Made by a program: the position numbers and the translations under genes
The notes under the pieces: model-generated
What the model was told of the DNA's origin: nothing
Seen by the model: the letters and a program-made list of their open reading frames with translations, nothing else
The model's database searches: none
NCBI GenBank assembly: GCA_027603945.1
Contig: JADIIU010000022.1
Coordinates: 62,001 to 126,000 of the forward strand
DNA length: 64,000 nucleotides
Direction of reading: 5' to 3'
Origin: Terramyces sp. JEL0728
Taxonomy: Eukaryota; Chytridiomycota; Chytridiomycetes; Rhizophydiales; Terramycetaceae
In this document: positions 1-64,000 of the stretch, one piece after another
Layout: each line of letters opens with the position of its first letter
How positions within the stretch are numbered: the stretch's first letter is position 1

Positions 1-475
1 ATCCAAACTTTTCTTTAATCTTCAACAAATCTAAAACAGTGTTGGTTGGACCCAAGCAAACTGGATCACTGATGAACCCATTTTCGAATTTCTAAATCAG
101 AAAAGGATGTACCTTTACTTTGCGAACCATTTCCGCTTGGTCTGTGACTGGGCAATTGTGGTGAATTACACCCAATCCACCGTTTAATGCCATGTGAATA
201 GCCATTTCAGATTCGGTGACAGTGTCCATAGGAGATGACAATAACGGGGTTTTAATCCTGAATCTTTTTGTAATTTGGGTTTCCAAGTTGACAATTGAAG
301 CTGGAAAATCAATGTAGCCAGGGAGGATTAGGAAATCGTTATATGTCAATCCACCAGATATTTGCGCATCAAATAGTTGAGCACCGGTGAGGCCGTCACT
401 GGTTGGTTTCTGGAGCAGCGCCAACAGCTCCTTGTTCTTTTGAGGGTCGCTAGATAAAATCAATTCAGCAGACAT
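1..475 (-). CDS. IMP dehydrogenase, N-terminal part (runs off the left edge)
   Basis: Inosine-5'-monophosphate dehydrogenase makes XMP from IMP, the rate-limiting step of GTP synthesis in the cytosol. The first 121 residues carry the family N-terminus, including [32 protein letters not shown] and [15 protein letters not shown]. Exons are 475-113 and 91-1. Removing the 21-nt intron 92-112 joins VRKVK to [10 protein letters not shown], the conserved continuation into the CBS region. The catalytic Cys loop lies outside the window. The start at 475 is the first in-frame ATG and gives a normal N-terminus. Family assignment is firm. Confidence 0.95.
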
Positions 476-578
476 TGCAATAATTTAAACCAAAAAAAAT
501 TTTCACTATTTTTCCCCTGTCCGCATGTGGCGCAGGAACGAGAACCTTAATAAGGGAATTTTCAGACAAAACCCCAAT

Positions 579-1843
579 TTATTCTTCAAAGTCATCACCA
601 ATAAATTCACCCAATCGCTCGTGAATGTCAATCCACTCGCTCTTGTCAACCCCATGTTGCCCTTGCTCAAAATCTCGTCTCAATGCAGGATCAAAGTACA
701 GCACATTGAAATCATGGATTTGCCGGGCATAATCCAAGCAACTGCCCAGCCCCGCATGCACTTCTTTGATTCCAAATTTCGGAAACCCTTTAAAATCTTG
801 GAAGGGGTCAAACAATATCGATTTGGTCTTTGGCTGTGTCCCGCGATAAAGCGCGTAGCTATCATACTCCCCTTTCTTATCCAATGCCAAATCCCAGTTA
901 TTAAATTCCATTCCCAATAGCTTTCCGATTCCCCCATAATAATTCAAGTCGATGCGTCTTGAATCGTTGAGCCTAGTTGGAAGACTAAGAGATTCGATTC
1001 CTAAAGCTACAATAGCGCTTTGTTGGTACAAGAAAGAAAAGTCTGCTTCTATTTCCCAATGATTAACTGTCGGTAGCTGTATAGGAATATATGTAGCTTG
1101 CTCTAATAGATTATCTAAAGCTAAAATCTTGTTCATATCTGTAATTGACTTTTGTTTCAGTGAATTATTCTTGTTTTGCTGCGATAAATTCATTATTACC
1201 GAAACGCCATAAACAAGGATACTCTTGCCGTACTCTTCTGCCAAAAGCGTTACTGTGCGGGACATTAAGCCGGAAAAGCCGTCATCCAAATCACTAAAAA
1301 TTTGAAACCCTTGAGAGGCATCACACTCTTCCATTTGTTTTCTAATGCAATCTTCTATTTCCAATTCCTACAGTCAACATGATTTACATGCTCTTGATCC
1401 ACCTCCTGATTAAAGTACTGAAATTTGTTTAATTCATCGCCAAGTGTAAATTGATGCAGTTGGTAAACGCTGTCTCTATCATAATACACCGTATTGAAAT
1501 CTGAAGCATATTCCGCACCATTTAACGATTTTGTATAATCTTTTTGTTCAGTTTCTTCTGAATCCAAATCACGAATGAATTCCGAAGTTGGATTCTCTTC
1601 TTGTTTAATTACTTGAACTTTTCCATCCCAGTTCACTTGTTGATCGCCAGATGGAGCATTGCCCACGGATTTGTTGTAGTCAATCATTAGTAATCGAGGA
1701 TAAAATTGATCTTTGAATTGCCTGTACAAAACCGAATCGTTGAATAAAGTCTGCTGCGTATAGTAATTCCCAATAATATTAAAGTAGTGAGTTGTAGCGA
1801 ATGAACTTTTATGTCCAAATGATAATGTAACAATTTCCCTCAT
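579..1843 (-). CDS. DML1: Misato/DML1 tubulin-like protein
   Basis: Misato/DML1 proteins are divergent tubulin/FtsZ-like factors linked to mitochondrial DNA partitioning, morphology and chromosome segregation. The start reads MREIVTLSFGHKSSF then THYFNIIGNYY, like the family N-terminus. After the splice comes EECDASQGFQIFSDLDDGFSG, the tubulin-like segment typical of Misato. Exons are 1843-1388 and 1367-579, giving 414 aa. The 20-nt intron 1368-1387 joins EVDQEH to ELEIEDCIRKQ in frame. Length is slightly below the usual 450-500 aa. It lies 28 bp upstream of the next minus-strand gene's end. Confidence 0.85.
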
Positions 1844-1871
1844 TTTCAGAGATCAGAAAAATGTTTATTCT

Positions 1872-2697
1872 TCACAATTTGGAATAGGTAGCCTTGGATT
1901 TGGATAGAGCAGCAGCACCAGCAGTCAGTGTATCAGGTGAATTCAACATGACACTGTTCCATATTGCTACATATTTCAATCCATCTTCAACAGAGTGATC
2001 TCGTGAATGCAACAGAATCTCTTTGATGGACCGAACAGCAATTGGAGGCTTGTCACCAATTTCAACTGCCAATTTGAATCCTTCGGCAATCATTTCTTTA
2101 CGATCTTCATATAATCTGCTTACTAATCCAAAATTCAAGGCTTCTTTAGCATCAAAAACTCTGCCAGTGAAACAAATATCATTGATCTATGGTTAGGCAA
2201 GCGTACCCAGCTGCGATTGCCAACTACTTTTGGTAGTCGCTGTAAGGTCCCTAGATCGGCAGCTAACCCAACATCAACTTCTTTTACAGTGAACTTTGCA
2301 TCATTACTGCATAATCTGATATCGCAGGCAGTAATTAAATCAATACCTCCACCAATACACAAACAATAACAGGTTTCTTGCATTGTTCGATAGCAGTGAT
2401 TGAATCCTGCATCAGCCCTAAATCATTCATGAATGAAAATGCAGCTCTTGCCGGATCTAAATCAGTTGTTCCTGGAAATGCTGTAGCTTCCTTCAAATCT
2501 AATCCAGCAGAAAAATGTTGAAATGCAGATAATAATAAAATTGAGCGAACTGAAGAGTCATGTTTGAGTTGAGTGAAACAGGCGAGCAGATCTTTGAAAA
2601 ACTGTACGTTCATTGCATTTAGTTTAGGACGATTCAAGTATACGATTGCGACATGGTTTTTTAGTTCGACTTTAATTGTTTTCAAATTGTTGGACAT
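1872..2697 (-). CDS. Peroxisomal delta3,5-delta2,4-dienoyl-CoA isomerase (ECH1-like), with a local frame break
   Basis: A crotonase-fold enzyme for beta-oxidation of unsaturated fatty acids. Visible ECH1 signatures are SAGLDLKEA, CIGGGIDLITACDIRL, EVDVGLAADLGTLQRLPKVVGN and SRDHSVEDGLKYVA. The protein ends in SKL, a type-1 peroxisomal targeting signal. A 20-nt intron (about 2184-2203) joins GNRSW to INDICFTGRVFDAKEAL. Near 2360-2366 the frame shifts between KKPVIV and CIGGG: two extra bases are present and the usual A-x-HG oxyanion-loop residues are missing, a net loss of about 13 nt. No intron explains this, so it is an assembly deletion or a real lesion. The chosen start is MSNNLKTIKVEL at 2697; the open frame extends further upstream without similarity. 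Confidence 0.85.
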
Positions 2698-2962
2698 TTG
2701 GAAAGTTTCGTGCGGGTGAACCGATAACACTTCCCGTGACCAGGCAATAGCTGTACATTGCTGATTCTTAGTGTTAATCATTGTGGGATGGCATGATCGT
2801 GCGAGAACATCCAGCTGCCGTGGGAAGTGAAATAGATAGCTATTATATTGCCAACTAGTAGATTGCTGTACTCGCAAAGAAACATCTGGTATTCACTACG
2901 CTCAATCGACTAAACGACGTGCGGCCAAATCGAACCAAAGAAAACCTAAAAGTTTCACAAAA

Positions 2963-5604: not shown

Positions 5605-6773
5605 ATGCTGCCAGAAATACCGTACCTGAAATTAATTCTAGCGGACAACTAGTTACAGAGAGAAACAAATTATTCGAGTTAAGGGAATGTGTAGTGAGGC
5701 TATTCAATCAGACCCTTTCTGCAAGGAGATTTCCTGGAGCTCAGCCAGTTTCATTTGGATCAGCACATTTGACAGAACTACAGCAAGAAAACTATTTCGT
5801 ATCTGAAAAAGCAGACGGGATCCGGTTGTTGCTGTACACCAGAACATTGCCGGACAAGAAAGTTGAATCGTATCTTATTGATCGCAAAAATAATTATTAT
5901 TACCACCACTTTGGATTACCTTTACCCGGACTTGAAAAATCACACCAGAATACTGTACTTGATGGAGAGCTGGTTATCGATGGAGGAAAAGTTGTTATTT
6001 TTAATGCAGATGTTGTTTATGGCGTTTGATGCACTGTACGTTCACGACAAGGACCTAACTGGGAAACCGTATACAAAAAGATTAGGGGTACTAGTTGCTA
6101 TTAACAATAGTATCTCAGGGAATTTGTGATTAAACCATTCATAAAGAGCAAGGAAAAGAACCCAGGCTATCTGAAAAAGTTTCCGTTTGAAATCGTTCAA
6201 AAACGCATAGAATTCTCCTACAATCTCCATTGCGTATTCAGGGATATGGAAAAGTACAAGCACGAAACGGATGGGATTATTTTCACCAGCGCTGTCGCAC
6301 CTTATGCCTTTGCTACGTGTGACAAGATGTAATTTCGTGGTTGATCAAGGCTCAAATGGAAGCCAGCAGAGGAGAATACAGTGGATTTCAAGATACTAAA
6401 TAACAATGGGGTATATCATTTGGGAATATTAGTCCAAGATACCGATTATGAAGACTTTGGGGAATTGACTTTGGATGATAAAACCAGAGAGGCGTGAGTG
6501 AAATTAACATAGATGGAATGAAACAAAACCCTTTGGGAGGATAATTGAGTGTCGATACGACCCGGATTGGCCAAATAACTGGAAATTCTCGCGATTTAGG
6601 GATGATAAGCTTACATCCAACCATATATCCACCTACCACAAGATTTTAGAATCTATCCATGATAATGTTACCAAAGACCAGGTATTCATCTGCTAATGTA
6701 GTTGCTTGCAATCAGGCAGGATATATATGAACACTGGAAGAGTAGAGACCCGCAGATTACAGAGCCCCGATAA
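5605..6773 (+). CDS. CEG1: mRNA capping enzyme, guanylyltransferase
   Basis: Transfers GMP to the 5' diphosphate end of nascent mRNA in the nucleus. Seven exons (5605-5621, 5642-5990, 6010-6087, 6111-6328, 6350-6493, 6513-6681, 6702-6773) encode 348 aa. The six introns are 20, 19, 23, 21, 19 and 20 nt. Conserved pieces are FPGAQPVSF, motif I EKADGIR (Lys62 nucleophile), TVLDGELVID (motif III region), FDALYVHDKDLTG, HETDGIIFTS, LKWKPAEENTVDF and IIECRYDPDWPNNWKFSRFRDDK. Several motifs exist only after intron removal, which makes this gene the best single proof of the tiny introns. The first exon is only 17 nt. Confidence 0.96.
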
Positions 6774-11453: not shown

Positions 11454-13426
11454 TTAGTAAGATAATGTTTCAGTTTGAGCACCAGCAACTGCAGTAAAGA
11501 CTTGGTTGCTGCCTGAATACCATTGTGGACTGGAGCAAGTTGTCTTGGTGGCAGTGCCATACACAATTGGTTTCCATTGTACTGAAATACCAGGTGCAAT
11601 AGTTTGGATATTGCACAACCAGATATTTCCAGTGGACCAAGTACATGCCACGCCAGTGCAAGTGTTCCAACTGTTGAATGTGCCAACGACATACAGACTA
11701 TCTCCATATTGCGTTTGATGAGTCACTTTAAAGTTGATATTTGCAACAGAAGTGGAAGTTGGGCTTGGATTGGCAGCTGTAGTAACTGTTACAACAGGAG
11801 TGGGTGCGTCTGTAGTTGCTTGTGGAACAGTAGTTGCTGGTTGAACAGTAGTTGCTTGTGGAGCAGCAGATATAACTCCGTCTGAACCACTGTAAAGTGC
11901 CAAGACTCTTGACTGATCTGCACTTCCAAGGTTAATTTGGACATTTCCGTTTTGGTCAACAGTGTAAAGAACCTGCTCTGCAGTTAATGACACTCCGGGC
12001 CACAATACACATTTGCCATTGGATGCATACCCATATACAAAGTTACAATACTTTCCTGGTGCCAGGCCAGATTGAACAGTATTGGTCATTTGCTGATTTG
12101 TGGCAGTTCCTTGAGCAGAGTTAATTGCGACAAATGCCTTGCCCTGTACAGACCAATAAATTTGATTAGTAGCAGCAACTTGGATCTGAGGAGCAGAGCT
12201 GGAAGCAATATAGTTTCTGATCCGGACAAGCGGATAAACATCAGTCATTCTGTGTTGCAAACTCCATTGCGAAAGAGTTTGAGAAAGAGGCAGGACATAA
12301 CCACTGGAGTCAGACGGAGGAGACAACGGGACTTCATCTTGACTGTTTCCAACGTACTTGAAGTTGTATCCAGAGTGCACAATGGGAATGCCAAAAGGAT
12401 ACAAGATGTTAAATGCAACTGCTTGCTTGTACCACCATGCATTGTTAATTCTATGCAAAGCATAGTTGCTATTGCCGTCATTGTTTCGTTCGGTATCGTG
12501 ATTCTCAATGAATGTAACTGACAGCTGAGAGTTCAATTGCAAATTGGAAATCTGAGTAGCCAACTGGTCGGTAGAAGAGCCAAGGTTTCTAAATGCCTTT
12601 CCAACAGCTTGACTATAATCAAAATTCAAAATCTTTCCAGTGGATTGATAGTTCTTGTACGTTCCATCTGGGAATGAATACATTATTTCATGTACAAAGA
12701 ATGCGTTTTCGCCTCTATAATTCTTGTTGACGCCAGATGTGAACGCTTTGAAATCGTCAAGCGGGATACTTTTGGTTGCATCTGATTTAATGTAAAATTA
12801 CCTGCTCTAAAGCCAGCAACCCCCAACGATAAAAGGTAATTCAAGTGTTCAGTGTGTTTTTGCCGAACATACGGATGTTCAGTCGCCAAGTCAACGAGAG
12901 TTGCCAATCTACAATTGTAAATACTCCATTGATTGGTCCAGTCGATATTGGCATTGCAGACACTGTCATGATAGTGCTCTGAAGTAAACCCAGGGTCTGG
13001 ATAGGATTCGCTGAGTGCCTTTGCAGTCCAAGCCTGTGAGTTGGTGTATCCAAACCCAGATGAAGAACCACCGCCAACACCAGTGTTGTGATTCAATACA
13101 ACGTCAACAATCACATCAACACCAACACTGGTACAAACAGCAGTCATGTTCTTAAAGTCTTCTAGCGTACCCATTCTATTGCCAACATTGTATCCCAGTA
13201 CCTGGTAGTTCAAGAACCAGCCAAAAGGTGCTCCAGTAGCAATAGAATTGATGTGTTCAACCACTGGAGCAGTCATTACGAAGGAATAACCATTGGGGGC
13301 CAAGAAATTCACACACTCGTCAGCGATATCTTTGAATCTCCACAAAAAGAGAGTAGCCCCGACGGATTTATCATTGATTGTATACTGAGAGACAGCTGCA
13401 CCGAGTAGTAGCGTTATAGGAAGCAT
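11454..13426 (-). CDS. Secreted GH13 alpha-amylase with C-terminal CBM20 (paralogue)
   Basis: Second secreted amylase, 650 aa, exons 13426-12802 and 12781-11454. Signal peptide MLPITLLLGAAVS precedes QYTINDKSVGATLFLWRF. GH13 motifs are DVVLNHN, GFRADATKSI (catalytic Asp, about 209), VHEIMYSF (catalytic Glu) and FIENHDTERN. A Thr/Pro/Ala-rich linker precedes the CBM20 domain (INFKVTHQTQYGDSLYVVGT, FNSWNTC). The 20-nt intron 12782-12801 interrupts the codon of the catalytic Asp (G|AT), and the frame is lost without splicing. The neighbouring paralogue lacks the intron. Order and strand suggest tandem duplication. Confidence 0.95.
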
Positions 13427-13854: not shown

Positions 13855-15297
13855 ATGAAGCGAACATTCCAATCTCGTTTCAACAAAAAACTAAAGAGGA
13901 GCAACATTTGCCCAGTATGTGCATTCGATTTTATTGGATCATTTATTGAATTTGAAGTTCATGTTGATGAATGTTTGAGCAGGAAAGAGGACTTGGTTCC
14001 CGATGATTTAATAGCCATTGAAGATGATAGTACCGCACACACTTTAGTGGAGCAGGAAATGGAGGAGATGATCGAACAAGAATTAGAAGCAACAGTCGAA
14101 CTATGGGATGAGGATGTTGAGAATAAACAAGGTAATGAAACTACGGAAAAGGCAGTCGTTGGAACAAAGAAAGGCAAACCAAAGAGGCAGTACAAGTGTC
14201 CGTGGTACAAACATATTCCCGATACGAATTTCACGATGGACGCCTTCAACTATGGGGTTATAGAGAACTGCTCAATCTATTTTCTATCGCATTTCCATTC
14301 AGATCATTATGGAGGACTAACTTTAAAATTTGAAGGAAAGATTTATTGTTCAGAAGTCACCGCAGAACTTGTCAAAATGCAACTCAAAGTTCGACCAGAT
14401 TTAATAACAGTCTTGCCATTAAATAAACGAATAGAAGTTGAAGGCCACCATGTTACGCTGTTTGACGCAAATCAGTAAACAATTATTAATGGTAGCTGTC
14501 CTGGAGCTGCGATATTCCTTTTTGAAATTAATGTTGAAAGCACTATTAAAAGGATTCTGCATACAGGAGATTTCAGAGCTTGCCCGGCTATGTGGAATAG
14601 AACGGAATTAAAAACAAGGATTGATGCATGCTATTTGGACACCACCTATTGCAATCCCACATATGTATTCCCCTCCCAATCGGATGTATTGGATATGCTG
14701 ACTGATATTGTTAAAAAAGTGAATTCGCAAGCAACAATTCAATCCATTGTCGCTAGGAATTCAATTTTAAATTATTTCAAACCAAAAATGCCTAGAAAGT
14801 CAAAATGCTTATTTGTAGTTGGGACATACTTGATTGGCAAAGAAAAGGTAATCAAAACCGTATCAAAAGCCATCAATTCCAAAATCTATGTAGATGCCCG
14901 GAAACTCGCCATATACAAATGTCAAAAGGATGATTATCTTTTGGAAAACCTAACTACAGACCCAAGCAAGTCTGATGTACATGTAACGTCAATGATGAGC
15001 TTGGACAAAAAGAACTTGGAAGCTTTACTGGAGAAAAACAAGAAATACACCAACATTCTAGCTATACGACCTACAGGATGGACTTTTTCCAAAAAGAAAG
15101 ATTTCAGTATCCATTCCCTCCAAATTAAAAAGATTTCACCGAATATTGATCTGCTGCCAATCCCGTATTCCGAACATTCATCATACTCTGAATTGAAGGA
15201 GTTTATTGGCCAACTAGATATCCTTAAAATTGTGCCGACTGTAAATGTAGCCAAGGCGAAAGAAATGGTAGCAATGCTGGCTGGTGTACGCGATTGA
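13855..15297 (+). CDS. PSO2: SNM1/PSO2-type DNA crosslink-repair nuclease
   Basis: A nuclear 5' exonuclease of the metallo-beta-lactamase/beta-CASP family that acts in interstrand crosslink repair. Exons 13855-14474 and 14496-15297 give 473 aa. A UBZ4-like zinc finger is near residue 22 (CPVCAFDF then HVDEC). The catalytic domain has YFLSHFHSDHYGGL (HxHxDH) and, across the 21-nt intron, LFDANHCPGAAIFLFE; the intron falls within the His codon (CA|C). HTGDFRACPAM and DTTYCNPTYVFPSQ follow, with the beta-CASP region RPTGWTF and YSEHSSYSELKEF. This is the typical order of SNM1A/PSO2. Confidence 0.94.
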
Positions 15298-16214: not shown

Positions 16215-16285
16215 TAAAGCTCGAATTTACCTCGATTGTCACCTCACCATTGTTCTTTCAATCCTTTTTTATTTTGTAAGGAGAC

Positions 16286-19200
16286 ATGGGAAGGAATAAA
16301 TCCATATCATCTCTATTCAACAGAGGTGAGCTGCCACTAATATTAGGAGAGGAATACAGGAAGGATGGCTCGCCTGGACTTCGAAAAGGAATGTCGATGA
16401 CAAAGGAAAACTCAATCAACACAGATATCACAGACAAATTAACAGAGCTGGCTCCATCTTTTGACATCATATGTACCTCTAATCAAAAGTTTGATCTGGA
16501 TTCAGTAATCGAGCGCAAAAATGCAATCTTAATATTCAATTTTGGAGCATGGAGAACTGATTTTAAGAATTTTCTAAAATCCCTTCATAAATCACTGTCT
16601 ATTTTTAACGATGACGAGCCAGAAATACTTATTATTTCCTCCATTGACAGCGATGAATTGTTTGACGTGTCAAAAGAGGAATGCGGTAAATTTAAAATTG
16701 CGTCTGACGAGAAGAATAAGATCGCTACCCAATACAAAATATCACTATCCAACAATATTTACATGTCTGTATTTGTTATCCAGAAAAAGACGAAACAGTA
16801 CATTTACTGCAATTTTGTTGATCTGGATACAATGATGCAGGGCACCGGAGAATTGATACACGCGATTGTAAATTCATTATCACCGGCTGTCAGTCCTGGC
16901 GGTGTCATGAAACACAAAGCGTCTAACCTGTTGACAAAGCTGCACACCAAAACCGCCAGCACTGCTGCAAATGGTAATTATATTGTAATTTAGATACTGA
17001 ATCAAAAAGTAGCCAAACAAGTTTAGTTGGCAACGATCAAAAGCTCAAAGTTAATGTTGACGACCAAACCCCTTTGTTTGCAACACAAAACCTGAATTCT
17101 GCGCCAATAGACATTCAAAAAGTGCTGCTTACGAAAAATTTGGTATTAATATTCTACAGAGGGTCGTGGAACTCTTTTTTTGCAAATCACTTGCGATCTG
17201 TTTTGAAAGCAGTTTCCATGTTTAATGACAAGGATGTGGAGTTGGTAGCAATATCCAGTGAAAAAATTGAAAATCTTTTAGAGCAGGTGGAGGATGCAAA
17301 GTTGAAAAACAAAATATGTTCTGATGCCGACAATAATATTGCGAAATTGTATGGATTAACAATTAACTGGAAACCTGATGATATGGCTGCCATGGAAGAC
17401 CTTCTAGGGAAAAATTGGGAGCAAATTTATGGAACTGGGACTACCTTAGCAGCTCCTGCCACTTATGTTGTGCAAAAGTATTCTGCAAAAGTTGTCTTTG
17501 TGGATGTGACTTCAGACTTTGCACGAACTGCTGGCCCAAAAGAAGTAATTGACGCATTAGTTACTGCCAATAAGACTGCAACCAAACAGTGTGCATTTAT
17601 CCCTACGGTGAATGAAAAGCAAATGAGAGACTTGCAAAATGTTGAAAATGAACAGAAAACCACAATTAAAGCGATTTTGGATTCCTTCAGACAAAATTTG
17701 TCTGCAGGCTCTGCCAGATCGGAAAGCACTGAAATTTACAAAAGTGTGAATGAGGGGGCAGCAAAGAAAATCGACGAATCAACGCACTTTACCGTTGGTG
17801 ATTCTGTACCAATGTTCAAGGCGAAAACGATTAGAAACCAGATGATTGACTTGGAAAGCGTTGTAGCTTCAAAATATGTAATATTGATCTTCTTTCGCGG
17901 AGGATGGTGTCCATTTTCTACTGCCCATCTGCGCTCAGTCCAGAAAGCCATGGAAATTTTGGACAATGATGACGTGCAAATTATTGCAGTTTCTGGAGAA
18001 AAAAGTGAAAAGTTGAATGAAATGACAGAACTGCAAAATTTCAAATTTAGTATTATTTGCGATGGGGATTACCAAATCACGAAGCAGTACGGATTAAATT
18101 ATGAGTGGAAAGAAGAGGAAATAAAAGCTTTAGAAGACCTAGTGGGATTAGATTGGAAAGATACATATGGAAAATCATGCATGTTGTCTTTGCCAGCGTC
18201 CTTTGTCATTCAGAAAAAAACCCAGAAATTAATATTTGCAGAAGTTAGCGCAGATTATACAAAATGGGCAGGGCCAATGGAAATAATGAGCGCAATTTCT
18301 GCTTCTAAAACCACACAACAGAAACTAGTGCCAGGCCAAAACTTGAAGGGTATCAGTCGAAGCAGTTCTGTTGAGAGCAGTAAGTTGTTATTGATTTTAG
18401 TGACCAATTTCACAAATTCTGAAACCAGCGCATCGAGTATATTGTAACTAACTCAGACATTAAAATTATTGATATGGAGCAGAAAAGTGGAATGATATCA
18501 GTGTTGGAAGGGCTAAAGAACCTTGTCACAAGAAAGGATCAGGCGGAACTACTTAAGAGGGCAGATGAACGAGCAGCACAGCAACTAGAGAAGAGGACGG
18601 TGAATGTTGGAGAAATAGTGCCAAATATAAAGATAGATTCTGTTGACGGCGAATTTGTCGATGTGTGGAAACTCTCTGCGAAAAAATACATAATCCTCTT
18701 ATTCTTTAGAGGAGCATGGTGCCAATTCTCAATGGTAAATATTATTCATTACAGACGCATTTGAAATCCATACAGAAAGCGCTGGATATCCTTAATGAAG
18801 GAGACGTTGAGATCGTCGCAATCTCTGGCGAAACAAAAGAAAAGTTGCAGGCACTGACGATCGAACAAAAACTAAAGTTTAAATTATGTTCCGATGAGGA
18901 ATATGAAGTAACAAAAATGTTTGGATTAGAGTATTCTTGGAAGCCGGAAGAGATCAAAGCGTTAGAAGAAATCCTTGGTATGAATTGGCAAGACTCGTAC
19001 GGTGAAAGTTGCTCTTTAGCAGTACCAGCTGCATTCGTGGTGCAAAAGAAAACTTGCAAAATTATTTTTGCAGATATTAACCCTGATTATTCCAAGCTAG
19101 CAGGGCCGAAAGACATTATTGAGGCTATTTGGAAGTCGAAAAATTCACAGAAAGACGAAAATTTCGCAGGAAGGATTTCGCCGAGCATTTCTTCACTCAA

Positions 19201-21510
19201 ACGGGATGATAGTTTTTCAAGTTTGCTGAATTTCGATGTTGGTATGGCGGAGTCTAACCTAGATATCCAGATGATCGAGAGTGATTTTAGACAGAAAGTT
19301 GCGAATTTATCCGATCAGTTCAACAAAACGCTGATAAAATATCCAAATTATAACCAAATGATAGGAAATATGAAAACTTTTATGAAAAACGCTATGCACA
19401 ACAATAGAGTGCCAAATCTTGGAGATCAAGCTGCATTTTTCGTGTCTACCACCGTAGACGATGAATTTGTTGATATAGAACAGGTACTGCAAAGCAAATA
19501 TGTTATTCTGATTTTCATCTTTGGTTCATGGGCTCCATTCACACTTTTGCAACTAAAATCGATAAACAAAATGATTGAAATATCAGGAAACGATGACATT
19601 GAGGTGGTTGTAGTTTGCAACGAGAACCATGCGTCGTTGCAGACAATGGTGGAAGACAATAATTTAACAATCAAAGTAGTTAGCGACAGTTCAAATCAGA
19701 TAATCAACCAGTATGGATTAAAATATGAATGGAATAGCTCTGAAATCGAAACCATTAATGAGATTTATAATATTGATTGGTACAGATACTATCACAATTC
19801 CAATATCACGACAATACCAGCCTTATATGTAATCCAGAAGAAAACCTTCCGAATAGTATTTTGTAGGTTTTTTGATCCAGCCAAGATCCCCGGGCCAAAA
19901 GAATTGCTAGACGTCGTAAACTCAAAGAAAATATCCGTTACGACTCCTGGCCTGACAAAAAGGAACAGAGGCGCATCAAACCTCAGTTTATCGAAACTTG
20001 GACTTACTACAAAAGACGCATGTATTTACTTTTTAAAATAGCCATGATTGAAATTGACAGAGATCATAAATATTTGTTGACTGCAGTGCTGGAAAAATAC
20101 CGAATACTCATTTCAAACGACAATTCGAAAAAGAAAAGCAACGAAGTTATCGTGAGTGCAAACAAAAGGATCGAAAAGAATATTGACAGTCACAAGTCGG
20201 TATGTGTAGGAGATTTTCTCCCTCCGTTTAGTTTCAACTACAACTCACAAAAGATTAACATTGCATCCTTAAATCAGAACAAGAATCTGGTTCTCTTATT
20301 CTTTCGTGGAACGTTCTGTCAATATTCGATGGTTCAACTAAACTCGTTTCAGAAAGCGCTGAATGTGTTTGACGAAAGTGATGATATTGAAATAATTGCT
20401 CTAACAAGTGAAAAGAAAGAAAAATTCGAAGAGGAGGTAGAAAAACAAAAAATACCATTTAAAGTCGTCCATGACTCGGCATTTGAAATATCCAAATTGT
20501 TTGGAATATCTCACGATTACACGGACGATGAAAAAAGAGCGCTTGAAGATTTGATTGGGATAAACTGGCAAGACAGATATGGATCCGCGAAAGCAAACTC
20601 TGTAAATGCGTCCTTCATGGTCCAAAAGAAAACCGGAAGAATTCTGTTTGCTCAAATAAATGCTGATTACGGAAAACTTCCAGGGCCAAAAGAAATGCTG
20701 GATGTGCTGGCTAAATCTAAAGCAAAGGAATCGGCTATCAGCAATTTTATCCCCCTTCGCCAGTCGACCCTTATAGGAATACCTGCTATAGATAAAAGTA
20801 AATACCAATTAATGATAGAACTGCAAGCGATCGAGTCTGATCTAAAACTCGCGTTCAAATCAATTTCGCTAGGGTTCTCGCATATTGTCATTGGAAGTCC
20901 AAGCGATGAAGAAAGTTTAAATACCATTGAACAATCAAAAGCAAAAGCTGCAGCGGCATTGGCAGAAAAAAGGAAATACAAAGTGGGAGAAGTTGCTCCT
21001 ATGTTTAAAGTTGTTACAATCGCAAATGAAAATATTGACCTTGACAAGTTGGTAAAAACGAAAACAATAGTGCTAGTTTTCTTTAGAGGAACCTGGTGTG
21101 CGTATTGCTCGAATTATTTGAAATCGTTGCACAAAGTAGTCGACATATTCACAGACAACGATATCGAAATTATTGCTGTTTCAAGCGAGTCGTCGCAAAA
21201 ACTAAAAAATTTCGCTAGTGAATTCAAAATCAATTACATAGTAGCGCATGATATCAATTTTAAAATCGCAAAGCTTTATGGGCTCGATTTTGAATTCCGA
21301 GATTCCGATGTAAAAGCACTGGAAGAACTTGTTGGAATGAATTGGAAACAGGCATACGGGGATTCACTAATCTTGAGCACTCCGGCAACATTTGTCATAC
21401 AGAAAAGCACTGGGATTCTGATATATGCCAGCGAGAGCCCAGATTACACGGTGAGGCCAGGGCCAAGGGAAATAGTTGAAGCTATCCTAAATTCAAGAAA
21501 GCGTAAATAA
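16286..21510 (+). CDS. Giant protein of seven tandem peroxiredoxin-like (AhpC/TSA) domains
   Basis: Six exons (16286-16973, 16994-18379, 18401-18436, 18457-18734, 18755-20021, 20042-21510) encode 1707 aa; introns are 20, 21, 20, 20 and 20 nt. Seven thioredoxin-fold repeats of about 170 aa follow each other. Each has a strand ending in a RGxWC-like active-site turn, an LKSIQKA helix, a VISG-like strand, a YGLxYEW segment, a LPASFVIQKK strand and an AGPxE end. Active-site turns in order are GAWRTDF, GSWNSFF, GGWCPFS, GAWCQFS, GSWAPFT, GTFCQYS and GTWCAYC. Cys is thus missing in repeats 1, 2 and 5, single in 3, 4 and 6, and CxxC in 7. Single-domain bacterial relatives have RGGWCPYC. No signal peptide or TM was seen. 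The role is unknown; thiol redox or peroxide chemistry is likely only for repeats that keep Cys. Confidence 0.88.
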
Positions 21511-22441: not shown

Positions 22442-23222
22442 TTAGAAATACAGTCCAGATATCCAATAAGAGCGCGGAGTTGATTGTTCGTCAACCCAGC
22501 ATATTCCTTCATTTACCAGTGTGTTCAAGTTATTTTCAGCGCGATCTACCGTCCATCGCAATTCATTTACCAGCATATCTACATCCGCGTATCCATTATT
22601 TTCCGCAATCCCTAGCACCAATATATTATCATTATTGAGTTCTGAATTAATAAGAAATACCATCAGGTACTGATCTGATCAAAGTCCTGTTGCCCATTTT
22701 CATAACAGAGAACCCATCTCCCAATGGTTTTAGGCACTTTAAACTCTGCAGTACATCATCTCTCCTATTAGCAAAATGTACTCGCTTATTGTCAGAGAAT
22801 TCTTTCCCCTCATTTTTTCAACTTGCTTAATAAGCTCTCCAACCTCAATCAATCCTCCATTCTGTTCTCTCGTCACAATACACACTTGAGCAATCTGTAC
22901 AGATAGTTGGTAGTAAAAATCTCCAAACCCGAGCATTTCGGTCCAGAAACTCTTGTTGGATACCAGCGGATCTACTCCAACTTGTGCACACATATTTTGA
23001 AACTGCGTTCGGAATACTGGATCCTTTTTAATTTCATTTGAATGCTTCTGAGCAAATATTTCCAAATTGTTCTTTAATGCTTCCAGCGCAATTTTCATCT
23101 GTATTACATTCAATTACCTGTTCAAGTTGCTGGACTGCTATTTCTTCTCCTGCCTTCTGAAATTGCTCCCTAGTCCTACGTTGCTGTTGCAATCCCCGCA
23201 CACCAGCTTTTCTGTGGGACAT
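22442..23222 (-). CDS. SNF8: ESCRT-II subunit SNF8/VPS22
   Basis: Endosomal sorting subunit that helps form multivesicular bodies. Exons 23222-23118, 23098-22782, 22761-22661 and 22641-22442 give 240 aa. Conserved stretches are GVRGLQQQRRTREQF, ALEALKNNLEIFAQKHSNEI, FRTQFQNMCAQVGVDPLVS, FWTEMLGFGDFYYQLSVQI, DDVLQSLKCLKPLGDGFSV and RWTVDRAENNLNTLVNEGI (winged helices). Introns are 19, 20 and 19 nt. The second (22762-22781) has two in-frame acceptors. The farther AG gives ISEDDVLQSL, closest to the family, so the nearer AG at 17 nt is probably skipped. The end lies 14 bp from the end of the convergent Cys-rich gene. Confidence 0.95.
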
Positions 23223-23250: not shown

Positions 23251-24475
23251 ATGGCAATTGATGTTGATGAAATTATATCTCAATGCTACAATAAGCAACT
23301 GATACCTGCACCGGTTATAAAGGAGCTGTGCGAAAAAGTAAAAGAGTTGTTGGTCCAGGAGAGTAATGTTCGCTCCGTAAAATCACCTTGCACAGTAGTC
23401 GGAGACGTACATGGGTAAATATTGCTGATAAAAGACAGTTTTTTGATCTACTGGAAATATTTAGGATCGGCGGATATGCACCAAATACCAATTATGTATT
23501 TCTCGGAGATTATGTAGATAGAGGACATCACTCAATTGAAGTTATTACCCTCCTTACTTGCTTGAAGCTTCGATATCCGTCAAGAATTACACTAGTTAGA
23601 GGAAATCATGAGTCGAGAGCAGTTACAACCACATATGGGTTTTATACTGAATGCATGAGGAAATATGGCGATCCACAAGGTAGAACAACTCTAACCAGTG
23701 TGGAACTATTTTACAGAATTATTTGATTACCTTGTGCTGGCGGTAGTTATAGACGATACAATAATAGCCATCCATGGGGGGCTTAGTCCTTCTATTCACA
23801 CTGTTGATCAGATAAAAGTTATAGGTACGCTGCACTAACATCAAGATCGGTTTAAAGAAATTCCACATGAAGGACCAATGGCAGACTTAGTATGGTCAGA
23901 TCCGGTGCCAGCCGAATTATTGGAAACAAACGGGCACTTTGCAGTGTCGCCAAGAGGTGCTGGCTACGTTTTTGGAAAAGAAGTAACTAGAAAGTTCCTT
24001 GAAATGAATCAACTTGGACATATTTGTAGGGCACATCAATTATGCATGGAAGGATACCAAGTTGGTTGATTTAATCTAGATTTTATTTGATGACATGTTG
24101 TCAACTGTTTGGTCAGCACCAAACTATTGTTATCGTGCGGGTAATCTCGCCTCTATTTTGGAAATCAGCCCATCCCTAGAAAGATATTTCAATGTCTTTG
24201 GTCCCTGCCCAGTCCAAGACAGGGAAGCAAACGTACCATTGCAGCATGATCGACTGAAGGATTTGTTTGATACAGATGGCTTGATTAAGAAGATGAACCA
24301 GATGAAAACAGTCGGGCAGGGGAGTGGACACTCCTTGTTGGGTGAAGAACCTGTAGATTCTAATGCGGTAATAGATTCTAACTGTAGACCATTGATCGAT
24401 ATTTTACGTAATAAAGATTCTGCACTGAAAGGAAATTTCTTTGGTAACTTTTTGCCCCTTGCAATCAATTGTTAG
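23251..24475 (+). CDS. PPG1: PPG1-type Ser/Thr protein phosphatase (PP2A-like)
   Basis: A catalytic subunit of the PP2A-like group. Exons 23251-23414, 23435-23679, 23699-23824, 23846-24060 and 24080-24475 give 381 aa; introns are 20, 19, 21 and 19 nt. Metal and catalytic motifs are GDVHGQ (the first intron splits this Gly codon), GDYVDRG and RGNHE, then [53 protein letters not shown] and [27 protein letters not shown] and [10 protein letters not shown] fit PPG1 better than PP2A or PP4. The C-terminus extends about 85 aa past the core and does not end in the usual YFL methylation tail. Confidence 0.92.
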
Positions 24476-56660: not shown

Positions 56661-57118
56661 ATGGTAAATATACAGCAGAAAGATGAATTCAATTGACAGG
56701 ATTCATGTTCATAGAGACTAACCACTAGACCCACGTCAAAGCTTTCGAACTCAGAGAAAAGACCAAGGCTGAACTTACCCAACAATTGGAAGACTTGAAA
56801 AAGGAATTAGTATCTCTCAGAGTTAAAAGATCTGTTGGAGGAGCTGCACCAAAGTTTGCAAAAATGTAAATATTCATTAATCATAGTGGAATTGTTCGCA
56901 AATCCATTGCCCGTGTTTTGACTGTTATGTCCCACAACCAAAGAGAACAATTACGCTTGTTTTATAAGGGTAAAAAGTATGTTCCACTTGACTTGCGTGT
57001 CAAAAAGACCCGTGCTATCCGTCGTCGTTTGACCGCTGATGAAGCTGGAAAGAAGACATTGAAACAAATCAAAAAGGAAACTCACTTCCCACAACGCAAA
57101 TACGCTATTAAGGCTTAA
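56661..57118 (+). CDS. RPL35: Cytosolic ribosomal protein uL29 (RPL35)
   Basis: A 60S subunit protein near the peptide exit tunnel. Exons 56661-56663, 56729-56865 and 56887-57118 give 123 aa, the usual eukaryotic length. After a one-codon first exon (ATG) it reads [80 protein letters not shown] and [14 protein letters not shown]. The first intron is 65 nt and directly follows the ATG, a pattern common in ribosomal protein genes. The second is 21 nt and ends in TCATAG. Confidence 0.95.
56664..56728 (+). other. 65-nt first intron of RPL35
   Basis: Starts GTAAATATAC and ends GACTAACCACTAG, so it has ordinary ends and a CTAAC branch site. It is three times longer than nearly all other introns in the window. 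Confidence 0.8.
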
Positions 57119-57319: not shown

Positions 57320-58661
57320 TCAAAGTTTGGCACGACGTTCATAGTGCGCTCTGAGGCCATTTGCACGTTTCATTTCACTCCTCGCAATTTGTCTTCGATG
57401 AACTTCGTCTGGACCATCAGCGATACGCAAAGTTCTCATCATCCCATACATGTATGCTAGGGGGAAATCTTGGGAAACTCCAGCGCCTCCGTGAACTTGG
57501 ATAGCCCTGTCAATTACATTCAAAGTCATTTGTGGGATAATTACTTTGGCCATTGCAATTTCCTTCATTGCTTTCTTTGGTCCTTCCTTGTCCATTCTTG
57601 CTGCAGCAGTAAGGACGAGCAAACGAGCTTATGTTAGGACAATATTACCTTGGTCGATTTCCAATCTAGATTGGCAAACAGTGTCCATAGCAGTGCCGTG
57701 TTCACCTAACAATTTACCAAATGCCCTTTTTTTGGGATCAGTCAGACGAAGAATATGGTATTCCAAAGCACGTTCGGCCATACCAATCGATCTCATACAG
57801 TGATGAATTCTTCCTGGGCCCAATCTTCCTTGCATGATTTCAAAACCGCGTCCTTCACCAAGAACAATATTCCTTGCTGGTACACGTACGTTGTCAAAAT
57901 CAATTTCCATATGTCCATGAGGTCTATGTTAGCACAAGATTACGCATCGTCATATCCAAATATCATCATTGGTCTTACTATTGTTATGCCTTTGGTGTTG
58001 GACGGTACGAGGATAATACTTTGTTGCTTGTGTATGAGCTTGTTTTTAGGGTCAGTCTTTCCCATAACTATGTAGACAGCACATCTGGGGTCGCCGGCAC
58101 CACTACATTAGCAAAACTCACCTAATCCACCATTTACGACCGTTCAAAACGTATTCATCGCCATCTCTAACAATACTCAATTCGATATTGGTTGCATCTG
58201 ATGAGGCGACAGCAGGTTCAGTCATTGCAAATGCAGATCGAATCTTTCCTTCCATCAACGGTTTCAACCACTTTTCCTTTTGTTCTTCGTTCCCATACTT
58301 GGCCAACACTTCCATATTACCGGTGTCTATATTAACATTGAGTACCGGGAGCTGCAGTATTTGTAGCTTCAGGAGCCAAGTGAGATCTTCCAATAATTTC
58401 ACATAAAACAGCGTATTCAAGGTTGGTAAATCCTGGCCCTTCCTTGTAATACTTTGGAAGGAAGAAATTCCATAATCCCAACTTCTTTGCTTTGACTTTG
58501 AGCTCTTCAACCACTGGGGGAACGTAATTCCAGCGATCCTTGCCGATTTTGATTTGTGCATGATACGTTTGCTCAGCAGGGATACATTCAAATTCAACAA
58601 AATCAGTCAAGATCTTTTTGATTTCTTGGACTTTAGGACTAAGCTCGAATAACGAATTCAT
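57320..58661 (-). CDS. Acyl-CoA dehydrogenase (ACAD10/11-like), probably peroxisomal
   Basis: A flavoenzyme for the first step of fatty-acid beta-oxidation. Exons 58661-58346, 58326-58122, 58102-57944, 57923-57649 and 57627-57320 give 420 aa; introns are 19, 19, 20 and 21 nt. Motifs are [91 protein letters not shown] and [18 protein letters not shown], then [10 protein letters not shown]. The C-terminal AKL is a PTS1 variant. ACAD10/11-type enzymes in fungi are often peroxisomal or mitochondrial, so location is inferred from the tail. The open frame extends upstream to 58820; [12 protein letters not shown] at 58661 is the better start. Confidence 0.93.
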
Positions 58662-58888
58662 GTTTGGGAAAGAAATATGCGGCCGTGTAAGTAGTCTTGT
58701 GGTGTTGCCCATCGCCCGAAAATCGGTTTCAATCAAATACACATCTCGCGCTTTAGAAGATACACCTGCATTGCCTTCTTTTTCATCAGATATATGTCCC
58801 AGCATTAAGCTAGTTGCCACTCGCGACTTGGAATGAGAACACTTGCCTCGCTCCTGTCAAATAAAATCTTTTGAAATATTTTTATTCC

Positions 58889-59860: not shown

Positions 59861-60550
59861 TTATTGGCGATACCACATGACGGTAGCTCTTTCACGTCTG
59901 ATTTTCTTTTGTAATTGTAGCACACCGTACAACAATGCTTCTGAATATAAAATCCTATTTACCTGCAGTTGGTGGGCATCCTGGCACATAGATATCCACT
60001 GGAACGATACGATCGCAACCTCTCACAACAGCATAGGAATAATGGTAATAACCACCGCCATTAGCGCACGAACCCATAGAAATTACCCACCTTGGATCTG
60101 GCATCTGATCGTATCTATTTTTAATAGCCAATTACACTTTTCTTAATGCTGGTGCCATTTTGTTTGTCAAAGTTCCAGCTACAATCATAACATCAGCCTG
60201 ACGCGGTGTTGCTCTAAACACAATACCAATTCTGTCCTGGTCATATCTCGCTGCAGCCATGTGCATCATTTCTACTGCACAGCAGGCCAACCCAAAGGTT
60301 AATGGCCACATTGATGAAGTACGAACATAATTTACTATACTGTCAATAGTTGTCAGAGCAAATTCTGAAATTAGTTTCGAGTACCTGCTGCATTGTTTAT
60401 TGGCTTTGGAAGATTGAATGGGTTGACTGGTTGTGGTTTCGCATCTCGGGTGTCAAATGACGAAAGTTCCTTGTCATTTTTTATAAGTCTCATCATTGAA
60501 CGACATTGGTATTGTGGTTTTATCAACTGAAATGGAACTCTTCTAATCAT
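59861..60550 (-). CDS. NDUFS7: NADH:ubiquinone oxidoreductase PSST/20-kDa subunit (NDUFS7)
   Basis: The mitochondrial complex I subunit carrying iron-sulfur cluster N2. Exons 60550-60385, 60364-60136, 60114-59963 and 59940-59861 give 208 aa; introns are 20, 21 and 22 nt. The start [20 protein letters not shown] is a mitochondrial presequence. The core is [20 protein letters not shown] (two N2 Cys), [58 protein letters not shown] and [15 protein letters not shown] (the remaining Cys). The end is MWYRQ. All cluster ligands are present, so complex I is likely functional. Confidence 0.96.
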
Positions 60551-60718: not shown

Positions 60719-62197
60719 TTAGAGAGCAAACAGGCAGTCAACGCAGCAGGAGGTACATTCAGGGTCGAACAAGCATTGTGGAATTGGGCACTCTCCTTCA
60801 GTTGGCGGTTCTTCTGGCTCATCTGGTTGTGGGAGAGGTTCCTTTGGTTCCTTATCTGGGAATCCGCCGCCAAGAACGTTATTGTACAAAAAGTTATTTG
60901 GAGCACCCTTCAAAGCACCAGAAATCTTGTCTTTTGAAGATACTTGCTTGATATAGTCGTGAACTTCCTTGACAGTATCAAACTCGCCTTCAGCAAGAGC
61001 CAGAGCGACAACTCCAACAACGTGTGGAGTAGCCATGGAAGTACCTGAAATAGTGTTGGTTTTTCCGTTATTCCAAGTAGAAAGGATATCTACACCAGGA
61101 GCAATAATATCTACACATTTCCCTTTTTCAGAAAAAGAGGCAAGTTGATCGTTAATGTCAGAAGCTGCAACAGTGATAGCTTCAGGAACCCTAGCAGGAG
61201 ACAATTTGCAAGCATCTCTTCCAGAGTTACCGGCGGCAACACCAAAGACCAAACCGACATCAGTTGCAGCTTTAACAGCGCGATCTAATGCAGCAGAAGC
61301 ACCGCCGCCGAGCGACATGTTTGCGACAGACTTGCGTTTACCGGTTCCGTCTCTGGAAGATGAGTCTTTTGCGGCCCAGTCAATACCGGCAATGACGTTG
61401 GAAGTAGATCCAGACCCCTGGTTGTCCAACACTTTAACAGCGACAAGTGAAACGTTCTTGGCAACACCATAAGTTTTTGATCCGATTGTTCCGGCAACGC
61501 TAGCATTAAATAGTGATTACTGAGTACCATGTCCATTGCCATCCTTAGTACCGTCGCTAGTGAACGTCTTGCCAACTCTAGCACGGCCTTCAAATTCAGG
61601 ATGACCAACAAATACACCAGTATCAATAATGTATGCGGTTACACCAGCTAAAGTTAAAAACAAAATTACTTCCTGCAGAGTCAGGATAAGTATAGGCTTT
61701 ATCGGCTTTGGCAGGGTGATCTCGAACACTGATACGCTACAGATCAGTTAAAACTTACAGTTAACCCCCAGGCAGGTGACTTGGATTGAGTTTCAGAGAT
61801 GGTCATGATTTTGTCTTGTTCAATAAAGGCAATATCTTGATGTTTTTGCAAGAGCTTTACAATAAACGAGGGGATTCTGATACTGTAGCCTTTAAAATCA
61901 GGCAAATGATATTTGTGGATAATTCCAAAAGAGTCCCAGAAACCGTTCATCGACATGTAGCCTTCGGTCCTAGAGTCTTCTTGGACTGAAAAGAAGCTTG
62001 ATTTTGGCATAATCGGTTCCATTACGTTTTCAAGCCATTTAAAGTGACTTTTGACTAGGGTAAGAAACAATATTACGTGTAGTTGGCTGGATGTCTGGCT
62101 TAAATACCACGATATATTGATCAGGGAGCAACTTGCCGGCCAAGTTGTGGAGAGGAGTAGTGAGCGCGGTTCCGACCAAGAGTAAATTAACAAGCAT
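60719..62197 (-). CDS. Secreted subtilisin-like serine protease (proteinase K group)
   Basis: An extracellular peptidase S8. Exons 62197-62077, 62054-61759, 61736-61670, 61647-61521 and 61499-60719 give 463 aa; introns are 22, 22, 22 and 21 nt. Signal peptide MLVNLLLVGTALTTP is followed by an I9 propeptide (LPDQYIVVFKPDIQPTTLKS, then YSIRIPSFIVKLLQKHQDIA). The catalytic Asp is in TGVTAYIIDTGV. The catalytic His is in GHGTHVAGTIGS, whose codon is split by the last intron. The Ser is in TISGTSMATPHVVGVVAL. A Pro/Glu-rich hinge leads to a Cys-rich tail (CPIPQCLFDPECTSCCVDC) that is unusual for this group. Confidence 0.95.
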
Positions 62198-62908: not shown

Positions 62909-62997
62909 AAAGAATTTTCATCCATCACATGATTGATAATCTTAACCTTATTTCTATCCTGCATACAACCGTATTACACATGACTAAATACCCTTTA

Positions 62998-63192
62998 TTA
63001 CTGATATATTGACGGTTGAATTCTGCCAGCGAATCCCACTTTACTACCGCTGATTTTCTGAATGGCGTACAGCATTTCCACTATCGTAACTCCTACACGC
63101 AAAAACATAAACACTTGTAGAACCAGCAATTCAGTGAAACAATCCTCGTCCTCAAAATATTCTTCAAAGTATTTGTAAATTTTAGTAAACAT
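62998..63192 (-). CDS. Small protein with hydrophobic segment, unknown function
   Basis: A single-exon ORF of 64 aa: MFTKIYKYFEEYFEDEDCFT, a hydrophobic stretch ELLVLQVFMFLRVGVTIVEM, and a basic end GRIQPSIYQ. It could be a small membrane protein. No family was recognised, and it may be one exon of something larger. Confidence 0.4.
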   Translation of the reverse strand: MFTKIYKYFEEYFEDEDCFTELLVLQVFMFLRVGVTIVEMLYAIQKISGSKVGFAGRIQPSIYQ

Positions 63193-63454
63193 TAAAGGCT
63201 AATCATTCGATGGGCTTTTATTCTTTTTATTTGTTGTCTTGTAAATATTTGCAAAAGTGACGAATGGCAATCAACTAAAGGAGCTTGGCGATTGGCTGCT
63301 TCGCGAAATAATTGACAATGATTGGCCACAAAAGTTGTTTACAGTAAATAAGATTTGGTAAATATTTGTGTCTAGCAATGGAATGAATGATTAAACAATC
63401 TTGATAGGGTTTATTTACAAATAATTTCAAGTAGTCTGTTTTACATAAAGAGAA

Positions 63455-63997
63455 TTACTTTTCGTCGTCGTCATCATCGCTGGATGCTTCCTTTGGTTCC
63501 ACTTCCAAGCTCTTATCATACAGCTCATCTTCATTCATTATAGAGTTTTGTTCTTCCCATCCAACCGGGGCTCCTCTAGTATCTCCCAGCTTCCTCATGA
63601 ATTCTTGTATCTGAGGAACTTGAGCGAAATTGAATGGCGTCTGTTGGAATTTCTGAATTTCTTTGATCAAGAAATACACCTTTCTCCGTTTATCAAAGTT
63701 GATAAAGTGCGAATCAGGCAAGAAATCCGGGTTGCCCAGTTCGCAGAAAGTCAGATCAGTCAAAAAGACTCCCAAGAATGGAATAGCCGGTGGTACCATT
63801 TCTTTCAAGCACTTTCTGTAGTTTGCATATTGATACTTTGGCGACACCACTTCTTGTAGTGCTTTGTATTCTTCGCTAAGTTTTGGGAATTTATCCTCAA
63901 GCGCTCCCCAAGTCTTGTGCAATCTCCCTACTGGTCCCATGGTTAAGCCAGCAACGATTGTTGTGACAGCCGTAAGGTTTTTCAGCTCAAGGCATTG
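63455..63997 (-). CDS. Ras guanine-nucleotide exchange factor, C-terminal part (runs off the right edge)
   Basis: The end of a CDC25-type RasGEF catalytic domain that loads GTP on Ras. From 63997 (just after a probable acceptor TAG) it reads CLELKNLTAVTTIVAGLTMG, PVGRLHKTWGALEDKF, PKYQYANYRKCLKEMVPPAI, PFLGVFLTDLTFCELGNPDF and LIKEIQKFQQTPFNFA, the standard helical-hairpin end. A short acidic tail (Asp/Glu-rich) follows. Upstream REM and other domains are outside the window. Confidence 0.93.
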   Translation of the reverse strand, partial: QCLELKNLTAVTTIVAGLTMGPVGRLHKTWGALEDKFPKLSEEYKALQEVVSPKYQYANYRKCLKEMVPPAIPFLGVFLTDLTFCELGNPDFLPDSHFINFDKRRKVYFLIKEIQKFQQTPFNFAQVPQIQEFMRKLGDTRGAPVGWEEQNSIMNEDELYDKSLEVEPKEASSDDDDDEK

Positions 63998-64000
63998 CTA

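Follow-up and report, generated by a model that had tools for sequence, protein, structure and literature searches.

The window analysed here is a stretch of 64,000 nucleotides (nt) from Terramyces sp. JEL0728 (C22:62001-126000; the contig measures 144,375 bases, and the assembly 15,016,339 bases in 231 contigs). It carries, among others, genes for an mRNA capping enzyme, the cilium protein CCDC39, a PP2A-type phosphatase, NDUFS7 and SNF8/VPS22, and the coding sequences of all of these are interrupted by putative spliceosomal introns of about 20 nt, which are the subject of this analysis. The host is a true fungus (Rhizophydiales, Chytridiomycota) that carries a cilium gene. Its capping enzyme is 81-86% identical to proteins from two isolates of Boothiomyces, placed by the NCBI taxonomy in the Terramycetaceae, Rhizophydiales, Chytridiomycota, and 64% identical to that of Globomyces; the CCDC39 model matches the public CCDC39 of Terramyces sp. 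JEL0728 at 98% identity over 98% of its length.

Intron lengths in the window and the genome

Introns were called with a hidden-Markov gene finder covering both strands, which learned from long open reading frames and was then self-trained; it started from a flat intron-length prior of 12-150 nt and was given no splice motif except the two end dinucleotides. The census covered 39 loci (322,675 bases), six of 45 sources being omitted as overlapping or near-identical to others. In this sequence, which is 80% coding, the trained finder placed 562 introns in 217 models, 159 of which contain at least one, at a density of about 2 per kilobase (kb) of coding sequence. The length distribution is dominated by introns shorter than 30 nt: 513 measure 17-26 nt (3, 6, 128, 217, 100, 45, 8, 4, 1 and 1 at each successive length) and are called tiny introns below, 490 fall at 19-22 nt, and 49 measure 30-150 nt. 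The lower edge is sharp, with 6 introns at 18 nt against 128 at 19 nt, and it is already there before training (0 and 15).

A preliminary description of the window, made from its letters alone, had counted about 100 GT-AG introns in some 35 genes, nearly all of 19-23 nt with a mode of 20, and had regarded them as typical of the genome. Both statements agree with our calls. The window holds 113 introns in 37 models, 97 of them at 19-23 nt, with a mode of 20 (n = 44); 103 measure 17-26 nt and the other ten 51-128 nt. Among 20 sampled 10-kb stretches, 19 contain tiny introns, which account for 317 of the 347 introns there, and in one, with nine gene models, no intron was called. The nine models of this intronless stretch (C17:30001-40000) are fungal-looking; several are short proteins of secreted type in which motifs recur, and one is, by inspection, APSES-like.

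The concentration at 19-22 nt appears with GT-AG ends alone. In an untrained pass with the flat prior, 51 of 107 GT-AG introns fell in this range (1, 0, 15, 23, 7 and 6 at 17 to 22 nt), whereas eleven decoy dinucleotide pairs placed only 1-11 of 83-118 calls there. After self-training, GT-AG reached 417 of 488 calls at 19-22 nt with a total score of 12,601. Five self-trained decoys reached 6/450 (GA-AG), 9/488 (TG-AG), 44/383 (CT-AC), 20/493 (GT-CA) and 27/388 (AT-AC), with total scores of 8,567-9,981, clearly below that of GT-AG; CT-AC, with the 44, is how GT-AG introns look from the opposite strand. The same lengths emerge from a plain count of motif spacings from 12 to 120 nt in 271 kb (the window, two small loci and twenty 10-kb stretches of contigs C1-C20). 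GT..CTAAY..AG (Y, pyrimidine) occurred 63 times at 19 nt and 77 times at 20 nt, against a mean of about 30 and a maximum of 46 elsewhere. The TTAAY version gave 124, 137 and 82 occurrences at 19, 20 and 21 nt against about 57 elsewhere, yet 85 at 28 nt, and the peak at 19-21 nt was absent from the GC, GA and AT-AC controls. When complete models were subjected to two rounds of synonymous-codon shuffling (435 kb of coding sequence), the finder made 69 tiny calls, or 0.16 per kb against the observed 1.99 per kb, a twelve-fold lower rate.

Anatomy of the tiny introns

The donor begins GTA in 466 of the 513 tiny introns and is weak beyond, without a preference for G at +5. A YTAAY branch motif is found in 313 of them, compared with 11% of shuffled interiors. 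Branch points were called by likeness to TACTAAC, the yeast branch consensus, and a plain count of YTNAY at the branch location agrees (366 against 45 in shuffles), as does the earlier report of a CTAAC/CTAAT/CTGAT/TTAAT-like motif near the acceptor. The putative branch A lies at nt 14-15 in 401 of 512 introns and 5-6 nt before the intron end in 412 of 512. The acceptor is YAG in 439 of 513, and the interior has a G+C content of 26%. Just three or four bases separate the branch A from the AG, so that no polypyrimidine tract fits between them. The GT-AG ends are strand-specific, and the branch motif, fixed in its place, matches the canonical U2 small nuclear RNA (snRNA): the pyrimidines at branch positions -3 and +1 are compatible with U2 GUAGUA, in which G accepts C or U.

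Spliced models compared with known proteins

Seven spliced models were compared with solved structures, and junctions were scored within the displayed top-scoring alignments. All 18 displayed junctions, 17 from tiny introns and one from an intron of 62 nt, were free of gaps: four in the PP2A-like phosphatase, three each in NDUFS7 and SNF8, two in U1-C, four in Isy1 (one being the 62-nt intron) and two in U2AF65. The sole junction of Cwc25, at residue 108, was left out of the count, as the alignment around it is weak and has gaps. Junctions that fell beyond the alignments, or in alignments not displayed, were not scored either: those of eIF3f, the outermost two of U2AF65, the final one of U1-C and of the phosphatase, and the initial three of Isy1. 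A lower-ranked Isy1 alignment has small gaps a few residues past the 62-nt junction. In the U1-C gene, two exons as short as 9 and 10 nt precede introns of 21 and 22 nt, and splicing rebuilds the zinc-finger start MPKYYCDYCDIYLTHDSP. In the window, residues 9-885 of CCDC39 align to positions 16-894 of the Pfam profile across eight tiny-intron junctions.

We also compared public proteins, hand-picked from three families, scoring insertions and deletions (indels) of at least 3 residues and excluding CCDC39 before residue 27 and after residue 885. Indels flush with our junctions numbered 7 of 19 in close relatives (13 proteins; 1.5 expected), 4 of 22 in other Rhizophydiales (10 proteins; 1.6 expected) and 2 of 63 in other chytrids (28 proteins; 4.1 expected). 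A Kappamyces insertion close to residue 121 of the capping enzyme, counted among the seven, may be natural, this loop varying in several other chytrids. The capping enzyme of Boothiomyces JEL0866 has seven additional residues, apparently from an intron that was retained, and that of JEL0838 ends where the fourth Terramyces intron starts. These anomalies at junctions suggest that the tiny introns are probably common to Boothiomyces, and a nine-residue Kappamyces insertion at the fourth capping-enzyme intron hints at wider sharing. Among the few public gene models of this group that we compared, some skip an exon, retain introns or fuse genes at tiny-intron sites.

Such models raise the question of whether the real introns are longer, with single introns of 70-76 nt, as some public models have them, standing in place of two or three of about 20 nt. 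The public CCDC39 proteins of Terramyces JEL0728 and Boothiomyces macroporosus (P0241, P0242) lack 12 residues encoded by a 36-nt exon between two 20-nt introns, as if the whole 76 nt were one intron; the Isy1 N-terminus of Boothiomyces JEL0838 is three residues shorter, as a single 70-nt intron would make it if the DNA resembles that of Terramyces; and the 62-nt Isy1 intron looks real. However, Globomyces CCDC39 proteins (P0243, P0245) show no gap at the skipped residues, and the same public Terramyces CCDC39, although fused to its upstream neighbour, agrees with the other tiny junctions (6 mismatches in 987 aligned residues). The longer calls also have weaker splice sites: those of at least 30 nt have scores of 0.0 (donor) and 0.5 (acceptor), compared with 1.6 and 1.8 for tiny introns and -2.1 and -2.4 for random GT and AG. 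We therefore regard longer introns as a very improbable general explanation.

In the Isy1 gene itself (C35; L026:1963-2027, minus strand), three seemingly perfect introns of 20, 20 and 21 nt follow one another with just 1 nt and 3 nt of exon between them, and removal of the introns restores an E-D-K stretch that aligns with the conserved Isy1 N-terminus. The public Isy1 proteins of Batrachochytrium salamandrivorans (P0125) and Geranomyces michiganensis (P0124) begin MLYRF, without the first dozen residues of the Spizellomyces protein, which suggests that 5' exons were missed in annotation.

Two pairs of near-identical contigs (C30/C33 and C111/C199) provided four aligned pieces, about 14.2 kb in all, at about 99% identity. 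One 4-kb piece is without differences, and the pairs are most simply retained haplotypes or overlapping contig ends. Substitutions are concentrated at third codon positions (48 in 3,604, against 14 in 7,205 first and second positions), which indicates that the reading frames are right. Tiny introns showed 2 indels in 415 sites and intergenic sequence 6 in 2,698; coding sequence (10,809 sites) and longer introns (245 sites) had none. Both tiny-intron indels are of one base, pairing a 21-nt with a 20-nt intron; two substitutions in the 415 tiny-intron sites are too few to judge constraint. That assembly indels or an over-fitted finder created the apparent frame breaks is the least credible account: the finder does make false introns in shuffled sequence and fuses neighbouring genes, and before training one decoy pair equalled GT-AG in score, but shuffling lowered the call rate twelve-fold, trained decoys show no length concentration, intron removal rebuilds conserved proteins, and the near-identical contigs differ by indels in introns and intergenic sequence and by none in coding sequence.

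Splicing machinery

As judged from their sequences, those splicing components that can be checked in the genome look ordinary. U2 snRNA was found at 140 bits with its branch-pairing GTAGTA kept (GTGTAGTATCTGTTC), and Prp8, U1-C and SF3A3 are present. Family searches matched five of six spliceosomal protein families (Prp8, Cwc25, Isy1, U2AF large subunit and U1-C), with U1-70K unmatched; the U2AF large subunit scored 251.7 bits in six-frame translation, under the cut-off of 310.3, and was confirmed on the spliced model. This U2AF65 has RRM1-2, a C-terminal UHM and an N-terminal stretch matching the part of fission-yeast U2AF59 that binds U2AF35. The N-terminal MGGG glycine plug of Cwc25 is intact (MGGGDLNLKKSWHP). 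Isy1 starts MAPKTLAQKQEDKL and not MARN, and the Globomyces, Kappamyces and Gorgonomyces models diverge there too. The spliceosomal protein genes themselves carry tiny introns. The modified spliceosome that the preliminary description took the short introns to imply thus finds no support so far, with U2 snRNA, Prp8, U2AF65, U1-C and SF3A3 present and the Cwc25 plug kept.

A U1 11-mer, ATACTTACCTG, had four matches (12 for its backward control); with E values up to 10 allowed, Rfam recognised none of them as U1, none had a U1-like fold by eye, and these candidates were rejected.

Interpretation

Taken together, we consider it highly probable (roughly 0.94) that the introns of this chytrid nuclear genome, which is rich in them, have converged on a length of about 20 nt and that a U2-type spliceosome of an essentially ordinary kind removes them. 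Several points weigh against this reading. Splicing itself we infer from DNA and protein comparisons. Forty-nine of the 562 calls are at least 30 nt long, some of which may be real, and the 62-nt Isy1 intron probably is. The untrained CA-TT decoy gave more introns than GT-AG (118) and a slightly higher total score (5073 against 5068), with only 4 of the 118 at 19-22 nt; this pair was not taken through training. By the shuffle rate, some 8% of tiny calls could be spurious. The scarcity at 18 nt may in part reflect a weakness of the finder for introns that lack a stop and have a length divisible by three. In Paramecium, stopless introns of this kind are depleted; here an in-frame stop occurs in 56 of 82 introns of 21 nt, against a 61% any-frame rate at other lengths, a difference that the bias of the finder could also produce. 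Finally, U1 snRNA was not found with Rfam at two thresholds or with a pattern of 5' end and stem-loop, U6 snRNA gave two sub-threshold matches inside a protein-coding gene model, and U1-70K was not found in the family search; these searches had no control genome known to contain them and so do not amount to absence, and U1, U6 or U1-70K may yet be altered.

If the introns are spliced as modelled, the donor would be read mainly as GUA, by U1 and then U6, the branch site would pair with U2, and the acceptor would be the first YAG downstream of the branch. Branching would give a lariat loop of 14-15 nt and a tail of 5-6 nt. Since there is no room for a polypyrimidine tract, U2AF65, if it acts, would work in the absence of such a tract or bind T-rich bases that precede the branch. 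In a genome this dense in genes, pressure towards deletion may have shrunk the introns to the shortest functional length, about 19 nt, which would be set by the smallest donor-branch-acceptor spacing that the spliceosome can hold. To judge from the kin proteins, this state would be common at least to Boothiomyces.

More broadly, we lean slightly towards the view that a fungal clade (the Terramycetaceae, perhaps together with Globomyces and Kappamyces) arrived independently at introns of near-minimal size, in a genome rich in introns and with a spliceosome that is essentially complete and unaltered. If this is true, the donor-branch-acceptor spacing alone (14-15 nt, then 5-6, with a floor of about 19) would define how short an intron canonical splicing can physically handle, and the Cwc25 change proposed for Stentor would not be required.

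Comparison with other ultrashort introns

The introns of the heterotrich ciliate Stentor coeruleus measure 15-16 nt, and its unusual Cwc25 plug and Isy1 N-terminus are conjectured to avoid a clash with the small lariat (PMC9505925). Terramyces resembles Stentor in its tiny, uniform, AT-rich GT-AG introns with a GUA start, a fixed branch A, a 5-nt tail and a canonical U2 branch-pairing sequence, and in an Isy1 N-terminus that is not conserved (no MARN start), as also in the Globomyces, Kappamyces and Gorgonomyces models. It differs in intron length (19-22 nt), in the lariat loop (14-15 nt against 10-11), in its clear YTAAY branch motif, in the fraction of genes with introns (159 of 217 models, against 18% of Stentor genes) and in having kept the Cwc25 glycine plug that Stentor has lost.

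Paramecium introns have a median of 24-25 nt (PMC12862383, PMC5014332). As in Terramyces, they are mostly shorter than 40 nt with a donor reduced to GT(A) (PMC2483917), but those of Terramyces are shorter and narrower in range, and they carry a strong branch-point signature, position-locked at nt 14-15, where none is described for P. tetraurelia in that paper. Introns in the nucleomorph of Bigelowiella natans (18-21 nt; PMC10245619, PMC2483917) share the length range and GT(A) donors, whereas Terramyces has an independent nuclear genome of 15 megabases and a branch motif, which PMC2483917 did not detect in the nucleomorph. Mikrocytids likewise have a narrow and extreme range of 16-17 nt; for Mikrocytos, 224 predicted introns and 17-19 identified spliceosomal proteins are given (PMC10245619). 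Terramyces, by contrast, has about 2 introns per kb of coding sequence, and U1-C, U2AF65, SF3A3, Cwc25 and Isy1 are present.

Among fungi, introns average 63 nt in Cryptococcus neoformans, and two chytrid species have a mean of 3.93 introns per kb (PMC8476143). Terramyces is intron-rich like other chytrids, with introns about a third the length of other fungal introns. The preliminary description knew of no precedent in a fungus-like genome; the organism is a true fungus and not merely fungus-like, and no fungal introns of such length are reported among the open-access titles and abstract openings that our searches listed, a coverage that mostly leaves out the subscription literature.

The Terramyces introns are close to the smallest known in any organism. 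Earlier tiny introns, those of ciliates, of a nucleomorph and of mikrocytid parasites, could be put down to reduction, odd nuclei or altered splicing factors, and a fungus with intact U2AF65 and Cwc25 would uncouple intron length from those explanations. Locked branch positions have been linked to intron-poor lineages (PMC2483917); the Terramyces genome combines a locked branch site with many, tiny introns. It would offer a tractable system, JEL strains being culture-collection isolates, for asking how near donor and branch point can sit.

Gene models of the window

The gene models are collected in Table 1. The peptides LFDANHCPG, GFRADATK, GHGTHVAG and FCETCLN, which the preliminary description had read across introns, are all present in spliced models; its intron numbers for the capping enzyme (6) and CCDC39 (10) stand, while our SEH1 and peroxiredoxin models differ from its counts.

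Table 1. Gene models and introns of the window (positions in the window; CCDC39 is a ruler protein of the motile cilium)
Feature	Position	Strand	Introns	Basis or remark
mRNA capping enzyme (guanylyltransferase)	5605..6773	+	6 of 19-23 nt: 5622-5641, 5991-6009, 6088-6110, 6329-6349, 6494-6512, 6682-6701	Pfam mRNA_cap_enzyme and mRNA_cap_C continuous; similar to Boothiomyces proteins (identity in text)
Alpha-amylase-like gene (name by inspection)	11454..13426	-	one of 20 nt: 12782-12801	Spliced model contains GFRADATK
Metallo-beta-lactamase nuclease-like gene (name by inspection)	13855..15297	+	one of 21 nt: 14475-14495	Spliced model contains LFDANHCPG
Multi-domain peroxiredoxin gene	16281..21510 (start approximate; model begins upstream over a doubtful 113-nt intron)	+	9 of 18-21 nt	7 AhpC-TSA stretches
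SNF8/VPS22	22442..23222	-	3 of 19-20 nt: 22642-22660, 22762-22781, 23099-23117	2zme_A alignment gap-free at all 3
PP2A-type phosphatase	23251..24411	+	5 of 19-21 nt: 23415-23434, 23680-23698, 23825-23845, 24061-24079, 24368-24387	3p71_C alignment gap-free at the 4 junctions covered
CCDC39	34800..38084	+	10 of 20-22 nt: 34896-34915, 35168-35187, 35431-35450, 35791-35810, 35847-35866, 36034-36055, 37063-37082, 37141-37161, 37743-37763, 37868-37887	Pfam CCDC39; same-genome public protein P0241
CCDC39, 36-nt exon (12 residues) with flanking introns	35791..35866	+	two of 20 nt	Terramyces and Boothiomyces macroporosus public models lack the 12 residues
Ribosomal L29/L35-type gene	56661..57118	+	65 nt, after ATG: 56664-56728; 21 nt: 56866-56886	Pfam Ribosomal_L29
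Acyl-CoA dehydrogenase	57320..58805	-	4 of 19-21 nt: 57628-57648, 57924-57943, 58103-58121, 58327-58345	Pfam Acyl-CoA_dh_1, M and N along the spliced model
NDUFS7	59896..60550 (gene end approximate; model wrongly fused to eIF3f)	-	3 of 20-22 nt: 59941-59962, 60115-60135, 60365-60384	Ungapped alignment 52-204 to 6g2j_B over all 3 junctions
Subtilisin-family protease	60719..62197	-	4 of 21-22 nt: 61500-61520, 61648-61669, 61737-61758, 62055-62076	Pfam Peptidase_S8 and Inhibitor_I9; spliced model contains GHGTHVAG

Some of the ten window introns of 51-128 nt are finder artefacts, such as the 112-nt one (59784-59895) that fuses NDUFS7 to eIF3f. Two others probably join neighbours, SET to SEH1 (69 or 114 nt) and APSES to RING (64 nt). 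In the latter case (31432-34775), a gene with APSES (KilA-N) and ankyrin domains adjoins a RING-finger coiled-coil gene, and the two are probably separate; in the public model, the RING gene is joined not to APSES but to CCDC39. The 65-nt intron of the ribosomal L29/L35-type gene is a candidate for a rare longer class.

The product of the peroxiredoxin gene would be about 1,700 residues long and carry seven tandem AhpC/TSA peroxiredoxin domains. A chitin synthase with, by inspection, a myosin-like motor domain (45120-50511) has one intron near its 5' end, then about 3.2 kb without introns, and five tiny introns towards its 3' end. Outside the window, a divergent, intronless histone H3/H4 gene pair (by inspection; L043:1907-2753) adjoins the intron-bearing U1-C gene.

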